This document shows positions 37,691 through 62,699 of a stretch of DNA of 64,000 nucleotides, in pieces. Both the position numbers and the translations under genes were made by a program. The notes beneath the pieces were generated by a model, which saw only the letters and a list, made by a program, of their open reading frames with translations, had not been told where the DNA came from and did no database searches. Within the stretch, counting starts at the first letter, position 1. Each line of letters opens with the position of its first letter. Source of the DNA: Sclerodactyla briareus (Eukaryota > Echinodermata > Holothuroidea > Dendrochirotida > Sclerodactylidae); the NCBI GenBank assembly GCA_026419785.1, contig JAODTK010004999.1:434001-498000 (forward strand), in the 5' to 3' direction.

Positions 37691-37740
37691 TATCGATAGT
37701 CATTATATCCCCACTTCGGGGATATTATGGTTTTGGCTTC

Positions 37741-37833
37741 GCCGTCTCCGCCGCCGCGTCCGCCGCGTCCGCCGCGTCCGCCGCGTCCGCCGCGTCCACC
37801 GCGTCCGCCGCGTCCACCGCGTCCGCCGCGTTT
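37741..37833 (+). repeat. 9 bp GC-rich minisatellite
   Basis: About nine copies of CGCGTCCGC with occasional CGCGTCCAC. It is CpG-dense and purely C/G/T on the plus strand. The minus strand reads Gly-Gly-Arg or Ala-Asp-Ala repeats in frame, which I regard as non-coding shadows. Copy B has a degenerate equivalent (GGCGGAGCCGGCGGAG) at about 56608-56640. Confidence 0.9.
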
Positions 37834-38201
37834 CTTGTTAGCGCAATAACTCTCCAACACTTTGTCCGTTTGAGACGAAACTTGGCACACATGTCCGCCT
37901 TAGTGAAATCTCGGATGAGTTCGAAAGTGGGCGTAACCACATGAACGGGGTCAAGCTAATTTGCATAATTTTCACGATTAGAATATTTTCTCGTTAGCGC
38001 AATAACTCTCCAACACTTTGTCCGTTTGAGACGAAACTTGGCACACATGTCCACCATAATGAAATTCCAGATGGGTTCGATAGTGGACGTCACCACACGG
38101 CAGGGTCAAGCTAATTTGCATAATTTGCGCAATTTCAAAAGTTGGTCGGATTTCCACGAAACTTGGTAGGTGGGGACTATTTCTGGTCCCGAAAAAAGTG
38201 A

Positions 38202-38218
38202 AGGTCATTTCAAGGTCA
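38202..38218 (+). promoter_or_regulatory. DR5 nuclear-receptor-type motif
   Basis: AGGTCA TTTCA AGGTCA: two perfect consensus hexamers as a direct repeat with a 5 base spacer. This is the retinoic acid receptor (RAR/RXR) DR5 arrangement. The second half, TCAAGGTCA, is also an ideal extended half-site for NR5A or ERR monomers. A CCGGTCA follows. Function in this genome is inference; binding depends on chromatin and on the receptors present. Confidence 0.6.
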
Positions 38219-38432
38219 CCGGTCAATTTACGCGAGTTACAAAAGTTTGTCGGATTCCAATGGAACTCAGTAGGTGTGGACGGTGTTTGGTCCCGAAAAA
38301 AGTGGAGGACATTTCGGGGTCATAAGAGATCAAAGTCACGCTAATTTGCCCAAATTTGCGCATTTTTCGAAGTTGGTTTGATTTCCACGAAACTTGGTAG
38401 GTGGGGACTGTAATTGGTCCTGAAAGAAGTGA

Positions 38433-38459
38433 AGGTCATTTCAAGGTCACCAGAGGTCA
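38433..38459 (+). promoter_or_regulatory. DR5 plus DR4 composite motif
   Basis: AGGTCA TTTCA AGGTCA CCAG AGGTCA: three perfect hexamers in one orientation with 5 and 4 base spacers. It lies in the third tandem subunit at the same position as the motif at 38202. Subunits 2 and 4 carry degenerate versions (AGGACA TTTCG GGGTCA near 38307 and 38538). Confidence 0.6.
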
Positions 38460-38794
38460 AATTACGCAATTATCGAAGTTTGTTGGATTTCAACGAAACT
38501 TGGCAGGTGTGGACGATGTGTGGTCCCGAAAAAAGTGGAGGACATTTCGGGGTCATAAGAGATCAAAGTCACGCTAATTTGCCCAAATTTGCGCATTTTT
38601 CGAAAGTTGGTCCGACTTCCATGATTCACATGGCAAATTATATAACTATCTTCACCAACTGATCGAGAGGTGGGATATACACGTTGGCGGTTTACCCGCC
38701 AGCATATTTCTAGTTCTACTACAACATTGGCCCACAAGAAGGTTGCGAAGAGCACTTTTGAGTCTCGAAGGCCGCCTTATATGTGGTACAGTAA

Positions 38795-43900: not shown

Positions 43901-45190
43901 AAAGGAAATGTAAGAAACGAAAATTGCCTAACTTATAGGGGAGTATTCTTTCTCGTGCTAACATCCCTAAAATCGCCTACACTATCAGGTGCTGGTTTTG
44001 AACTTGGCAGATGCGCCACTTTTCAAATAGTTTTTTGGTTTTCAATTATTTGGTCTGTTTGTACGGCACCTGTAAGACACTTGCAAATAATAACTTCAAT
44101 TATTAGTCCGCATTATTGGTTGCGATAATATTGAAGACGTGATCTTTGCTGTAGAGAGTCTCTATGCATCGGTCGTGGATTGCGGGGGCGAGATCTGATA
44201 AACATATCATATGCGACGGTACTGACTGCCGAATAAGAGTAATAAAACCACTGTGTGAGGGTGGCAATGTCGATGGAATGTGAAAGATGCCTTTCCCCCC
44301 CCCCCCCAAAATTGGGGCAATACTTAGCCCTGTTAAATCATGATTTGATTCCACAGCGAAGTTCAACAGTATTGCCGACGCTCTTCTCATAATGTGGCGA
44401 GACATATTCGTCGAGAGAACAAGTCATATGTCGTTATGCGACTGACCTCCCGAGTCCCATTATGAGTAAAAATAGAAGTTTGTGACATGGGACACAGAAT
44501 ATTTCATTGCATAATAAAACTGCAGCAGAATGAATAACCCGAATAATGTCCGTTTCAGTCTTAAGACAGTGTTGTAGTCGAGGCCAGGAACTTCCGAGGC
44601 CAAGACCGAGGTCGCACCCTCGAGGCCGAGGCCATGGCCGAGGCCAGCCAACTGAGGGCCCCCCCCCCCCCAGCCGAGATCGGGCAATATTAATGATATG
44701 AGAGATAGTTAAATTCTGGGCAAAATTAATGTGCTAAAACAGTTAAACATAAGCTAGTAATGATACAATCATAGATTGACATTGAATTACATGTATGGAA
44801 ACACTTGACAAAAAACATCAAAGTAAAGAAATCATTGAAGTTTTAGGCGAATAGTAAAAAATACCGCTAGTAGGAAAGTTGAACCCAGGCGTTCTTGACA
44901 TGACTGTAAGGACAGAACAGTCCACATAGGAGCCTACTCATTAAGCAGAAGACAGTAACTTACGAGTAAAGTATGAGCTTAATCTATTACCAGGTCTCAT
45001 CGGCAGAGGCATACAATATCCTTACAATTTGGCCAAGACACCAGTGCACTAATCACGCACAAAATGACACATTTTCCATATATATTTTTCAAGCAAATAA
45101 TTTTACCTAACGAGGTCGGCAAGGGTGCAAACATGTTGAGGGGAGTGGGGGATGTCTAGACCCCCGACGAATCCACGACCGTATTCGTTT
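40951..45190. other. No gene recognised
   Basis: More than 4 kb of AT-rich sequence with many short frames. A 64-codon frame at 43315-43509 (+) follows an acceptor-like ACTGTACATACAG but has no domain. A C13 tract lies at 44295-44307. At 44575-44690 GAGGCC words repeat (CCGAGGCC, TCGAGGCC, GCCGAGGCC) next to another C13 tract (44659-44671). No RNA gene was found. Confidence 0.45.
44575..44690. repeat. GAGGCC-rich low-complexity repeat with C13 tract
   Basis: Irregular repeats of GAGGCC and GAGGTC over about 80 bases, then GGGCC followed by a C13 run. It is GC-rich against AT-rich flanks. The minus-strand 75-codon frame here is a by-product. Confidence 0.7.
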
Positions 45191-45200
45191 CCGATTCTGA

Positions 45201-45340
45201 ATTATGGGACCTTTTTTCCTATTAGAATATCGGACCTTTTTTCCTAATATGAATATCGCACCTTTTTCCTATAATGAATATCGGACCCTTTCTCAGATTA
45301 TAACAGACCATTTTTACAATTATGAATATCGGATATTATG
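45201..45340 (+). repeat. ~25 bp tandem repeat, about six copies
   Basis: Units such as ATGAATATCGGACCTTTTTT and TATGAATATCGCACCTTTTT follow each other every 25-26 bases, decaying toward 45340 (ATGAATATCGGATATT). The consensus is approximately AATATGAATATCGGACCTTT then TTTCCT. Non-coding. Confidence 0.85.
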
Positions 45341-55976: not shown

Positions 55977-56002
55977 TGACCTCCATGACCTTGAAATGAC
56001 CT
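55977..56002 (-). promoter_or_regulatory. DR5 plus DR3 composite motif
   Basis: The plus strand reads TGACCT CCA TGACCT TGAAA TGACCT, so the minus strand carries three perfect AGGTCA hexamers as direct repeats spaced by 5 and 3 bases. The AGGTCA-TTTCA-AGGTCA part is identical, spacer included, to the two motifs in copy A, despite general divergence between copies. Receptor binding is inference. Confidence 0.6.
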
Positions 56003-56201
56003 CCACATTTTTGGGATCAACTATAGTCCCTACCCACCACGTTTCGTTCAATCCGACTAACTTGAATTTTTCGCGAACTTATCATTAGCGGCCCCGGCAC
56101 TGCAGTGATGCCCACATTTTCGAACTGTCCGCGTTTACACCAGGGCGGACAATTGACCAAGTTTCAGATCATCGATAAAGCGTTGAGAGTTATTGCGCTA
56201 A

Positions 56202-56590
56202 AGGCCGGGATTCATGATGAGATGCGATCCCGGGCTCGGTGAACATCGCCTTATACGGGAAATGAATGTTCGTTTCGAAGAGAAAACACTATAACTGTAT
56301 GCAAAAAGACCATAAAAACGCAGCAGCCAGCCCATGAATATTGTCGTTGCTTGGCTGTTTGAGGAAGATTTTTCCACAGAATTCATCGCAGTGAGTCAGT
56401 GATACGATCCGCATACGCATTAGTACATGTGATTTTTTCGCTTATTCGGTGTTGGTTTGACCTTAATTATTACTTTTTAGCTTTGTGGCACAAATATCTA
56501 TCATAATTAGACCATATTCAAACATCGCCCCGACTCAGTTCACGTGAAATGGCGATTTCCAAACGCATACGCATCTATGGAATCCCGGCC
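56202..56590. mobile_element. 389 bp MITE, TAA target duplication (PIF/Harbinger-like)
   Basis: Terminal inverted repeats GGCCGGGATTC (56203-56213) and GAATCCCGGCC (56580-56590) are perfect. Partial similarity continues inward (GATGCG/CGCATC). It is flanked by TAA at 56199-56201 and 56591-56593, with one extra A at the left edge. Removing it restores GCGCTAACGCC, resembling GCGCTAAC in copy A (minus strand), which supports a clean insertion. Three-base TAA/TTA duplications are typical of PIF/Harbinger; the superfamily is inferred from that alone. It has no coding capacity. Confidence 0.75.
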
Positions 56591-56700
56591 TAACGCCTAA
56601 AGTTTCCGGCGGAGCCGGCGGAGCCTGGGACGGCGGCGGCTACCCACCCACACCATAATATCCCGGACACTTCCAGGTCGCGGGGATATAATTAGGGAAT

Positions 56701-60540: not shown

Positions 60541-61740
60541 CTTTAAACTTTCTTTCGCGAGGAGGAATAATTAGTGGAATAAGCCTCCCTGTGGATGGCG
60601 TTTGGTGTAAGAGTGTTTATGCCTTCAAGGACAGCCTTGCCTTGTTTCTCACCCATGGTAGGAGAATTCTTTGAAATGTCGTTCTCTTTCTTGGGTAAAG
60701 GAGTGACTTGACGTCCAATAGTCACGTGAAGTTCGTTTGAATTTTGGTACGTCCTATTGCAACAAAATAAATGGAGTGAATATCCACGGATGGAAAAAAA
60801 TACTACACCTACTAAAAATCACAAAACGGTGCACAAGATGAGAAACAATCTCCTCATTCAGGTGTGAATAACACTTTCCACTTCATATAAGTTTTGCAAG
60901 TTGCAGACAACAAAGGCAACATGCTGGGACCTTCAAATATGGTGATTGTTGGTTCGCCATTACCCTTCTGTGCTGGTTTTAGGAACACCTGATTACAGTG
61001 ATTTTGGTCTTTAGGTCAATGTATGTTCCAATAGGAAATATAGCTCTACCCGGGTTTTATTAGAATCGCAGTTTTGTTGTTATTCTCTTTTTTCAAGGGC
61101 ATAAACAAAAAGGGTGTATTTGATTTTTTGCCTACAAATTCGCAATAAACGGCTCCCGTTAAAAACCATTGATGCGACGCAGACTGTGTACATGAGGTTC
61201 ACGCTGAAGTAGTGAATCCCCCCCCCCCCCTTCCTCCTCTCCTAAGGAATCTAGCGAATGGCACCACAGAAACATTCGTTTCATGGATAGCAAAACTGCC
61301 ATTAAACTTGAGTTCTTATCCATATGTTATTCACTCAACGGACAACCATAGTTCCATTACGTCTGCCTTCTTAGGGGCAGTGTAATCCGGGAAATAGGTC
61401 GAAGCTTCCCTGCTTACCTTGAAGATGTGCCCCAGAACATTGTAGGACGCGACAGAACAAAGTCGTTAACGTAAACCTTGGCTCCCGGATTAATGTAATC
61501 TGACTAGCTTGGCCTCGCCGTACTAAGGAGACCATTTACAAATAATACATTGGTCTCTACTAGTACCTGGAGAATGGGAAATATATACAAAGGACAGGAG
61601 AACCATTTATGTCGTCGCAAGCACGTCATTACCATTAAATGATAATGATGGGCATTTCATAGGAAGAATGACTTCATAGATTAAGGAATTAAGGCCTGAG
61701 GCTGCAATATTTATTATTAGAGAGATTGGTTAATTAATAG
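60541..61740. other. No gene recognised
   Basis: AT-rich. A C13 tract at 61218-61230. A 60-codon minus frame at 60543-60725 has ordinary composition but no domain or splice signals. Confidence 0.45.
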
Positions 61741-61747
61741 ATATATA

Positions 61748-61805
<58 letters not shown>

Positions 61806-61852
61806 TATATCTATTAGAATTAATTATATTATATATATATAATATATATATA
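61741..61852. repeat. (TA)n array at the SINE 3' end
   Basis: About 112 bases of nearly pure TA with a short interruption (CTATTAGAATTAATT). It directly follows the 3' end of the minus-strand SINE (…CTTCGCTCCCTC then TATATA), so the array probably grew from the SINE's TA-rich tail. Confidence 0.9.
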
Positions 61853-62461: not shown

Positions 62462-62507
62462 CATTTACGTAGATTGTTGTTTACATGTTTGGCCGTGTTA
62501 TATCTGA

Positions 62508-62557
62508 TATATCAAAATATAGATATATATATATATAGATATATATATATAATCTAG

Positions 62558-62597
<40 letters not shown>

Positions 62598-62690
62598 TAT
62601 AAATATATATATATGAAATATATATATATAATTATATATATAATATATCTTAATATATGATATATATATATATATTATAAATATTGTATA
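62508..62690. repeat. (TA)n array with interruptions
   Basis: About 180 bases of TA with TAGATA, AATCTAG, TTATAA and GAAATA breaks. It separates the 120-codon frame from an unassigned stretch starting at 62700. Minus-strand Tyr-Ile frames here are not genes. Confidence 0.9.
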
Positions 62691-62699
62691 ATAAAAAAT

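Follow-up and report, generated by a model that had tools for sequence, protein, structure and literature searches.

Perfect DR5 motifs of Sclerodactyla briareus as probable passengers of a HINE-type transposon

In the window, as the whole stretch of 64,000 nucleotides analysed here is called, direct repeats of AGGTCA with a five-base spacer (DR5) occur inside a tandem array that the initial annotation had read as a possible mobile source of nuclear receptor elements. It is likely that these DR5s belong to the tandemly repeated core of a HINE-type transposon (a non-autonomous Helentron), and that for the most part they are hitchhikers. The unit of about 115 bp holds AGGTCA-like words 10-11 bp apart, in the order hexamer-N5-hexamer-N4-hexamer. 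As anatomy and copy number suggest, such units would have been multiplied inside the elements, and the elements in turn by rolling-circle-type transposition, so that most of the DR5s would simply have travelled along.

Anatomy and dispersal of the carrier element

The structural reading is firm: the array with the DR5s is the core of a dispersed HINE-type element. The whole element measures about 1,014 bp (37701..38714, + strand), with borders common to other copies, and its parts are all given on this strand. It begins with a 5' subterminal inverted repeat (subTIR), TATATCCCCAC (37704..37714), which in the DNA fold forms a hairpin with its inverted repeat partner CGGGGATATTATGG (37717..37730); the fold of 37701-37740 has a z of -4.78, and none of 200 shuffles was equally stable. 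The inverted repeat adjoining the 5' subTIR is visible in most of the other 5' ends compared. Next comes a microsatellite, (CCGCCGCGT)9, detected by the tandem-repeat scan at 37751..37831 and seen for the window copy only.

The central part consists of two kinds of repeats. Two units of a first type, recognized by the positions of their start motif (TTAGCGCAATAACTC..., at 37838 and 37994), occupy 37838..38120, the end being approximate, and are related to the units that follow (67% over 671 columns by self-BLAST). The latter form an A-B dimer array (38105..38621) with a period of 233 bp and 2.2 copies; each period comprises two subunits of roughly 105-130 bp, which agrees with the tandem subunits of about 115 bp described in the initial annotation. 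Central repeats between matching ends are found in other copies too, and not in that of the window alone. On the far side lie the 3' subTIR GTGGGATATA (38670..38679), one base shorter than the GTGGGGATATA of other copies, and the palindrome GGCGGTTTACCCGCC (38686..38700), identified by DNA folding, after which the element ends with CTAGT|T, 14 nt separating the end of the palindrome from the border. The fold of 38660-38715 has a z of -2.41, with 2 of 200 shuffles equally stable. The subTIRs TATATCCCCAC and GTGGGGATATA are complementary, with a length within the range of about 11-15 bp typical of HINEs, the 3' copy of the window being one base short.

The borders were derived by comparing 26 sequences: 20 of 3.5-6.9 kb, four further loci, and two from the window. 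Strict criteria for the ends (no more than two mismatches, plus context), applied to 25 sequences after one redundant locus was dropped, returned 12 5' ends and nine 3' ends, and both ends on one strand in five elements. These five complete elements, of which the window copy is one, are about 954-1163 bp long. The distance from the 3' subTIR to the border is 35 nt in seven of the nine 3' ends, and 34 and 36 nt in the other two. A T precedes the element in 11 of the 12 5' ends, the window copy being inserted as T|...|T, and no target-site duplication is visible by eye at the borders compared.

A second related element, more decayed, lies on the opposite strand (55986..56690, -), with its 5' subTIR at 56690-56680, related units, and one perfect DR5; no 3' end was recognized for it. 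At another locus (L003, about 1114-1177), two HINE 5' ends stand head to head, which suggests that one element is nested in the other or that the two form an inverted pair.

Other identities for the sequence were considered and rejected. A known structured RNA is discounted, as nothing in the window exceeds an Rfam gathering score, and so is a coding sequence, given that no open reading frame of at least 130 amino acids (common start codons) overlaps the element. Elsewhere, the window contains a degenerate tandem array with a 25-bp unit (45188-45333) and long AT-rich dinucleotide tracts (1961-2094, 61737-61852, and 62499-62697).

The family is abundant. A 21-base seed of the unit, taken outside the motif and searched with up to three mismatches, occurs 1,557 times in the genome vs 5 for the reversed control, and a 14-base seed 3,368 times vs 23. 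Could this be an ordinary satellite, grown by local tandem duplication with no transposon involved? The 233-bp tandem period would suit such an origin, but it is extremely unlikely: the arrays are short, dispersed, and flanked on both sides by conserved non-repeat ends, and these common ends largely refute it. The HINE anatomy together with the copy number is, instead, the basis for considering the element mobile, and seed counts and common ends support the initial annotation as far as a dispersed, high-copy repeat with transposon anatomy is concerned.

The features of the window element are matched in published descriptions of HINEs and Helentrons, as far as the relevant passages of two reports go (PMC7492417, PMC4067079). 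Those on Cg_HINE of the Pacific oyster (PMC7492417) describe the same 5' subTIR with an adjacent inverted repeat, a microsatellite, central tandem repeats, and a 3' subTIR with a palindrome, as well as a preference for T-rich or TT insertion sites and no target duplication, which the T|T borders seen here may share; however, the sequence is another one, and the oyster units are predominantly 140-180 bp, whereas those described here are about 105-156 bp and partly arranged as A-B dimers. In the passages on the DINE-1/HINE/Helentron families of mite, mosquito, and Drosophila (PMC4067079), the likeness extends to a subTIR set a few bases in from the 5' end, a palindrome near the 3' end, the non-coding nature, and probably the TT preference; the interval from the end of the 3' subTIR to the end of the element is 34-36 nt here vs about 38-60 in the mite families (PMC4067079).

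Direct AGGTCA pairs in the window and in the genome

Three perfect copies of AGGTCA-TTTCA-AGGTCA occur in the window. Two of them, at 38202-38218 (+) and 38433-38449 (+), sit in subunit A of the first and second dimers, where the initial annotation had placed them; the third, at 56002-55986 (-), was absent from it and has the same spacer. Shuffling gives a mean of 0.01, and none of 100 shuffles reaches three. With up to two mismatches allowed, the window holds 7 DR5s vs 5.2 expected, so that only the perfect ones stand out. Given their one common spacer and their location in related repeats, the three are copies of one sequence, and they count as one event rather than as independent ones.

The other motifs reported for the array were likewise located, all on the + strand. 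The degenerate version AGGACA-TTTCG-GGGTCA occupies subunit B of the first and second dimers (38306-38322 and 38539-38555, motif scan). The further AGGTCA that follows the second perfect DR5 after four bases creates a DR4, AGGTCA-CCAG-AGGTCA (AGGTCACCAGAGGTCA, 38444-38459, self-BLAST and position check), which overlaps that DR5, and TCAAGGTCA is present at 38210-38218 and 38441-38449 (position check). Once the two elements are removed, the window has no notable excess of AGGTCA: it occurs 28 times, where its 180 letter permutations average 25.6, and ranks 60th.

On the scale of the genome, the numbers become large. Perfect DR5s amount to 4,259 vs 108 for the reversed pattern (727 with the TTTCA spacer), and DR4s to 18,337 vs 240, over four times the DR5 count. 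Taken together, direct AGGTCA pairs at spacings of 0-12 number 49,434 vs 1,291, an excess of about 38-fold that corresponds to about one pair per 6.5 kb, and DR5 makes up 8.6% of them; at spacings of 13-25 there are still 16,991 vs 1,340. Inverted pairs at spacings of 0-12 are in no excess genome-wide (423 sites vs 381). A general abundance of the hexamer was rejected as the cause, inverted pairs being at background and the window having no notable surplus outside the elements. Some of the surplus spacings are not known from receptor dimers. A surplus that is confined to direct orientation and reaches non-receptor spacings fits repeat architecture, and repeats have spread thousands of direct pairs in this genome, in support of the initial annotation, which held that a mobile repeat could do so.

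More than one repeat is involved. When 28 pair-bearing loci were compared, with linkage at E 1e-8 (two of them, L015 and L016, overlap), matches to the HINE unit were found for L011, L186, L192, and L191, the last with one of its pairs. The remaining pair of L191 belongs with L009, L013, L015, L016, and L200 in a group with pair distances of about 600 bp, to which L188 is also linked, although its own pair lies outside the matched part. A third group, with a period of about 310 bp, comprises L010, L193, and L201-L203; L194 and L195 pair up with no further partner, and 11 loci have no link within this set of 28. The surplus pairs thus fit at least three repeat groups, separate at E 1e-8. Two loci chosen by a HINE-unit seed and blind to the motif (L168 and L170) resemble the 310-bp group by eye, and a distant relationship is possible. 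The AGGTCATTTCAAGGTCA 17-mer is also present in the 600-bp group (L015) and is therefore seemingly not confined to HINE units; the same group (L015/L016, L013, L009, L191, and L200) includes AGGTCAAATTGAGGTCA. On contig C44 of genome G000, degenerate arrays of about 310 bp (C44:263640-268648, +, and C44:237565-238730, -) contain AGGTCATCTGAGGTCACCAGAGGTCA, which comprises two successive DR4s, in a large number of units; this repeat differs from that of the window, to which it is perhaps distantly related.

Might the GGTCA words, phased at 10-11 bp, play a part in DNA structure, through helical phasing, the positioning of nucleosomes, or a slippage that lets arrays grow, rather than as receptor sites? 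DR4, which has a step of 10 bp, is the commonest of the first 100 pairs listed (30, with 12 for DR5) and far above DR5 in the whole counts, which cover DR4 and DR5 only; arrays such as AGGTCATCTGAGGTCACCAGAGGTCA recur among the matches listed, the excess is restricted to the direct orientation, and the word recurs in groups unlinked at E 1e-8, except for one locus holding two. Against a structural role, which would on the whole be improbable, the same 100 listed pairs also include a good number of DR1s (15) and DR0s (9).

Conservation of the motif among repeat units

If the motif is a passenger, how well has it been kept? Variability was measured on 83 sources: 80 chosen by seed from the listing of the 21-base seed, with the motif not used, the two window elements, and locus L003. 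Alignment to the window dimer gave 162 matches, of which the 154 units spanning 80 columns or more, drawn from 79 loci, were kept; each locus was weighted once, the seed was excluded from the comparison, and 300 bootstraps were run over loci. With the remainder of the unit as reference, the variability ratio is 1.01 (0.84-1.18) for the first hexamer, 0.44 (0.31-0.58) for the spacer, and 0.48 (0.33-0.66) for the second hexamer, while the two hexamers pooled give 0.75 (0.64-0.87). The first hexamer is unremarkable, since 130 of 202 placements vary no more than it does. Within the window subfamily, by contrast, TTTCAAGGTCA, one of eight pieces examined, has the lowest variability among 192 11-base placements. 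Even in the most diverged third (37 of 109 units), the second hexamer (0.077) and the spacer (0.103) remain below the first hexamer (0.189) and the rest (0.274).

Part of the variability of the first hexamer is accounted for by the CGGTGA type. Without the units having C1 or G5 in this hexamer (127 of 154 kept), its value is 0.104 vs 0.157 for the rest, a figure biased low since such a selection favours the motif. Other measures point to a DR5 that is partly well preserved: 45 of 125 units have the 17-mer intact, which places it fifth among 169 placements, and by mean majority letter it comes 13th of 179 (69 loci). For the two hexamers of subunit A (12 positions), 35 of 179 placements do as well or better; for their counterparts in the degenerate subunit B, only 19 do.

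Decay of the hexamers at the pace of their neighbours had been named in the initial annotation as a sign against function; it is seen in the first hexamer and not in the second, and only one of the two half-sites therefore exceeds its neighbours in conservation (1.01 vs 0.48). The DR5 as a meaningful unit was accordingly rejected, its first hexamer varying like the rest and DR4 being commoner. Judged from sequence comparison, what appears conserved within the window subfamily is the extended half-site and not the DR5 as a pair; for the arrangement as a whole there is no clear sign of selective retention, although one portion is conserved to an unusual degree. That portion, TTTCAAGGTCA, may have been retained by an accident of subfamily history or by a constraint on the source elements.

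The wider family was sampled without regard to the motif by taking 80 places from the first 100 listed for the 14-base seed, skipping neighbouring seeds and three places already sampled, and scanning 130 bases from the seed. Strict DR5s occur in 3 of these 80 units, RGKTCA DR5s in 7, and RGKTCA DR4s in 8 (shuffles give about 0.01 each), and any RGGTCA in 36. When the units are grouped by 6-mers, the strict DR5 counts in the six larger groups are 0/14, 1/11, 0/9, 0/8, 0/7, and 0/4; the remaining units are 25 single ones and two forming a pair. At the homologous site, sister groups have, for example, CGGTGA-TTTCA-AGGTCA, AAGTCA-TTTCA-AAGCCA, or GGGTCA-CTGG-AGGTCA. With so few strict DR5s, such group counts, and such differing letters, the idea that each subunit delivers a DR5 element fails for the wider family; in the window itself the alternate subunit is degenerate, and the first hexamer behaves like its neighbours.

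Receptor readings and what they may mean

NR5A and NR6A proteins bind TCAAGGTCA, and the NR5A consensus is YCAAGGYCA. TCAAGGCCA presumably fits this consensus, and TTTCAAGGTCA is taken here to hold a half-site of the NR5A/NR6A type. A search of the genome for zf-C4 domains gave 7 matches from 14 first-look candidates, a lower bound given that exons split the domain; three of the pieces, compared with solved structures, were best matched by NR5A2 (E 4e-23), NR6A1 (E 7e-26), and PPAR-delta (1e-15). An NR5A-like DNA-binding domain (L018/L020, C2478:91737-91939) is situated some 5.5 kb away from an array of HINE units (L003, C2478:97392-97747); its zinc-finger coding sequence has a frame change in mid-sequence, and the proximity is probably a coincidence.

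These data bear on a narrower proposal, in which source elements would keep TTTCAAGGTCA for a monomeric receptor of the NR5A/NR6A kind. This receptor would bind TCAAGGTCA as an extended half-site and might, for instance, promote the expression of the element, or its access, in germ cells; the first hexamer would be incidental. The proposal is rather unlikely. The exceptional constancy of the 11-mer, its persistence in the most diverged third of the units, the domain pieces resembling NR5A2 and NR6A1, and the occurrence of TCAAGGCCA in 4 of the 80 motif-blind units all speak for it. Yet the 11-mer was chosen after eight pieces had been viewed, shared ancestry can give conservation among related copies, and YCAAGGYCA is present in just 10 of the 80 motif-blind units and missing from four of the six larger groups. 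The half-site noted in the initial annotation as one for NR5A or ERR has, then, a mixed record: TCAAGGTCA is present, contributes to the least variable stretch, and is matched or undercut by only 5 of 196 placements in the subfamily, but it is carried by only 4 of the 80 motif-blind units.

The original suggestion, that such repeats could seed working DR5 elements for the retinoid receptors RAR/RXR, is weakened, and it now seems very unlikely that they do. The 4,259 perfect DR5s are in its favour, as is a precedent in primates: according to the passages available from one study, the human genome has 108,582 DR2s, 90% of them in Alus and some bound by RAR (PMC1785376). Like the repeats described here, Alu is a mobile repeat multiplying perfect direct pairs of receptor half-sites genome-wide; unlike them, it is a SINE and not a Helentron, its pairs are DR2 and not DR5 or DR4, and RAR binding, which would be hypothetical for the repeats described here, has been demonstrated for it (PMC1785376). 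The small share of DR5 among the pairs at spacings of 0-12, the fourfold larger number of DR4s, and the unconserved first hexamer weigh against a retinoid role; so, to a lesser degree, do the best matches of the three domain pieces compared, none of which is RAR or RXR, the zf-C4 search behind them giving a lower bound. A monomer site kept in the source elements would be a narrower version of the functional reading.

Mobile repeats spreading direct repeats of receptor half-sites are thus already known. A second parallel, cited in a review, is a fly Helitron that spread binding sites for a chromatin complex (PMC9301316): in both cases a Helitron-type element carries a protein-binding site, a putative one in the present case, to new places, with a function reported for the fly and a sequence motif for the sea cucumber. 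The review passages found contain no link between Helitrons and nuclear receptor response elements, and none of the satellite or tandem-repeat matches listed has AGGTCAAAGGTCA; neither is a proof of absence from print. Direct AGGTCA pairs on this scale in the tandem repeats of such a genome may not have been reported before, no such title being among the open-licence literature matches listed.

Any receptor binding would most simply be a latent by-product of the hitchhiking favoured here. It is also conceivable, if rather doubtful, that several separate tandem-repeat and transposon groups have direct AGGTCA arrays, DR4 being the commonest pair counted, since a germ-line receptor, for instance a host protein like NR5A or NR6A, binds them and aids spread or expression; were this true, the genome would be a very large store of receptor sites.

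The lesson of this element is that even a conspicuous, perfect binding motif may simply have been carried along in the repeat unit of a transposon, and that the way to tell is to compare each half-site, the spacer, and the inverted pairs with the rest. Should any receptor bind the arrays, these tens of thousands of direct-repeat sites would become candidate sinks or seeds for hormone-receptor networks.
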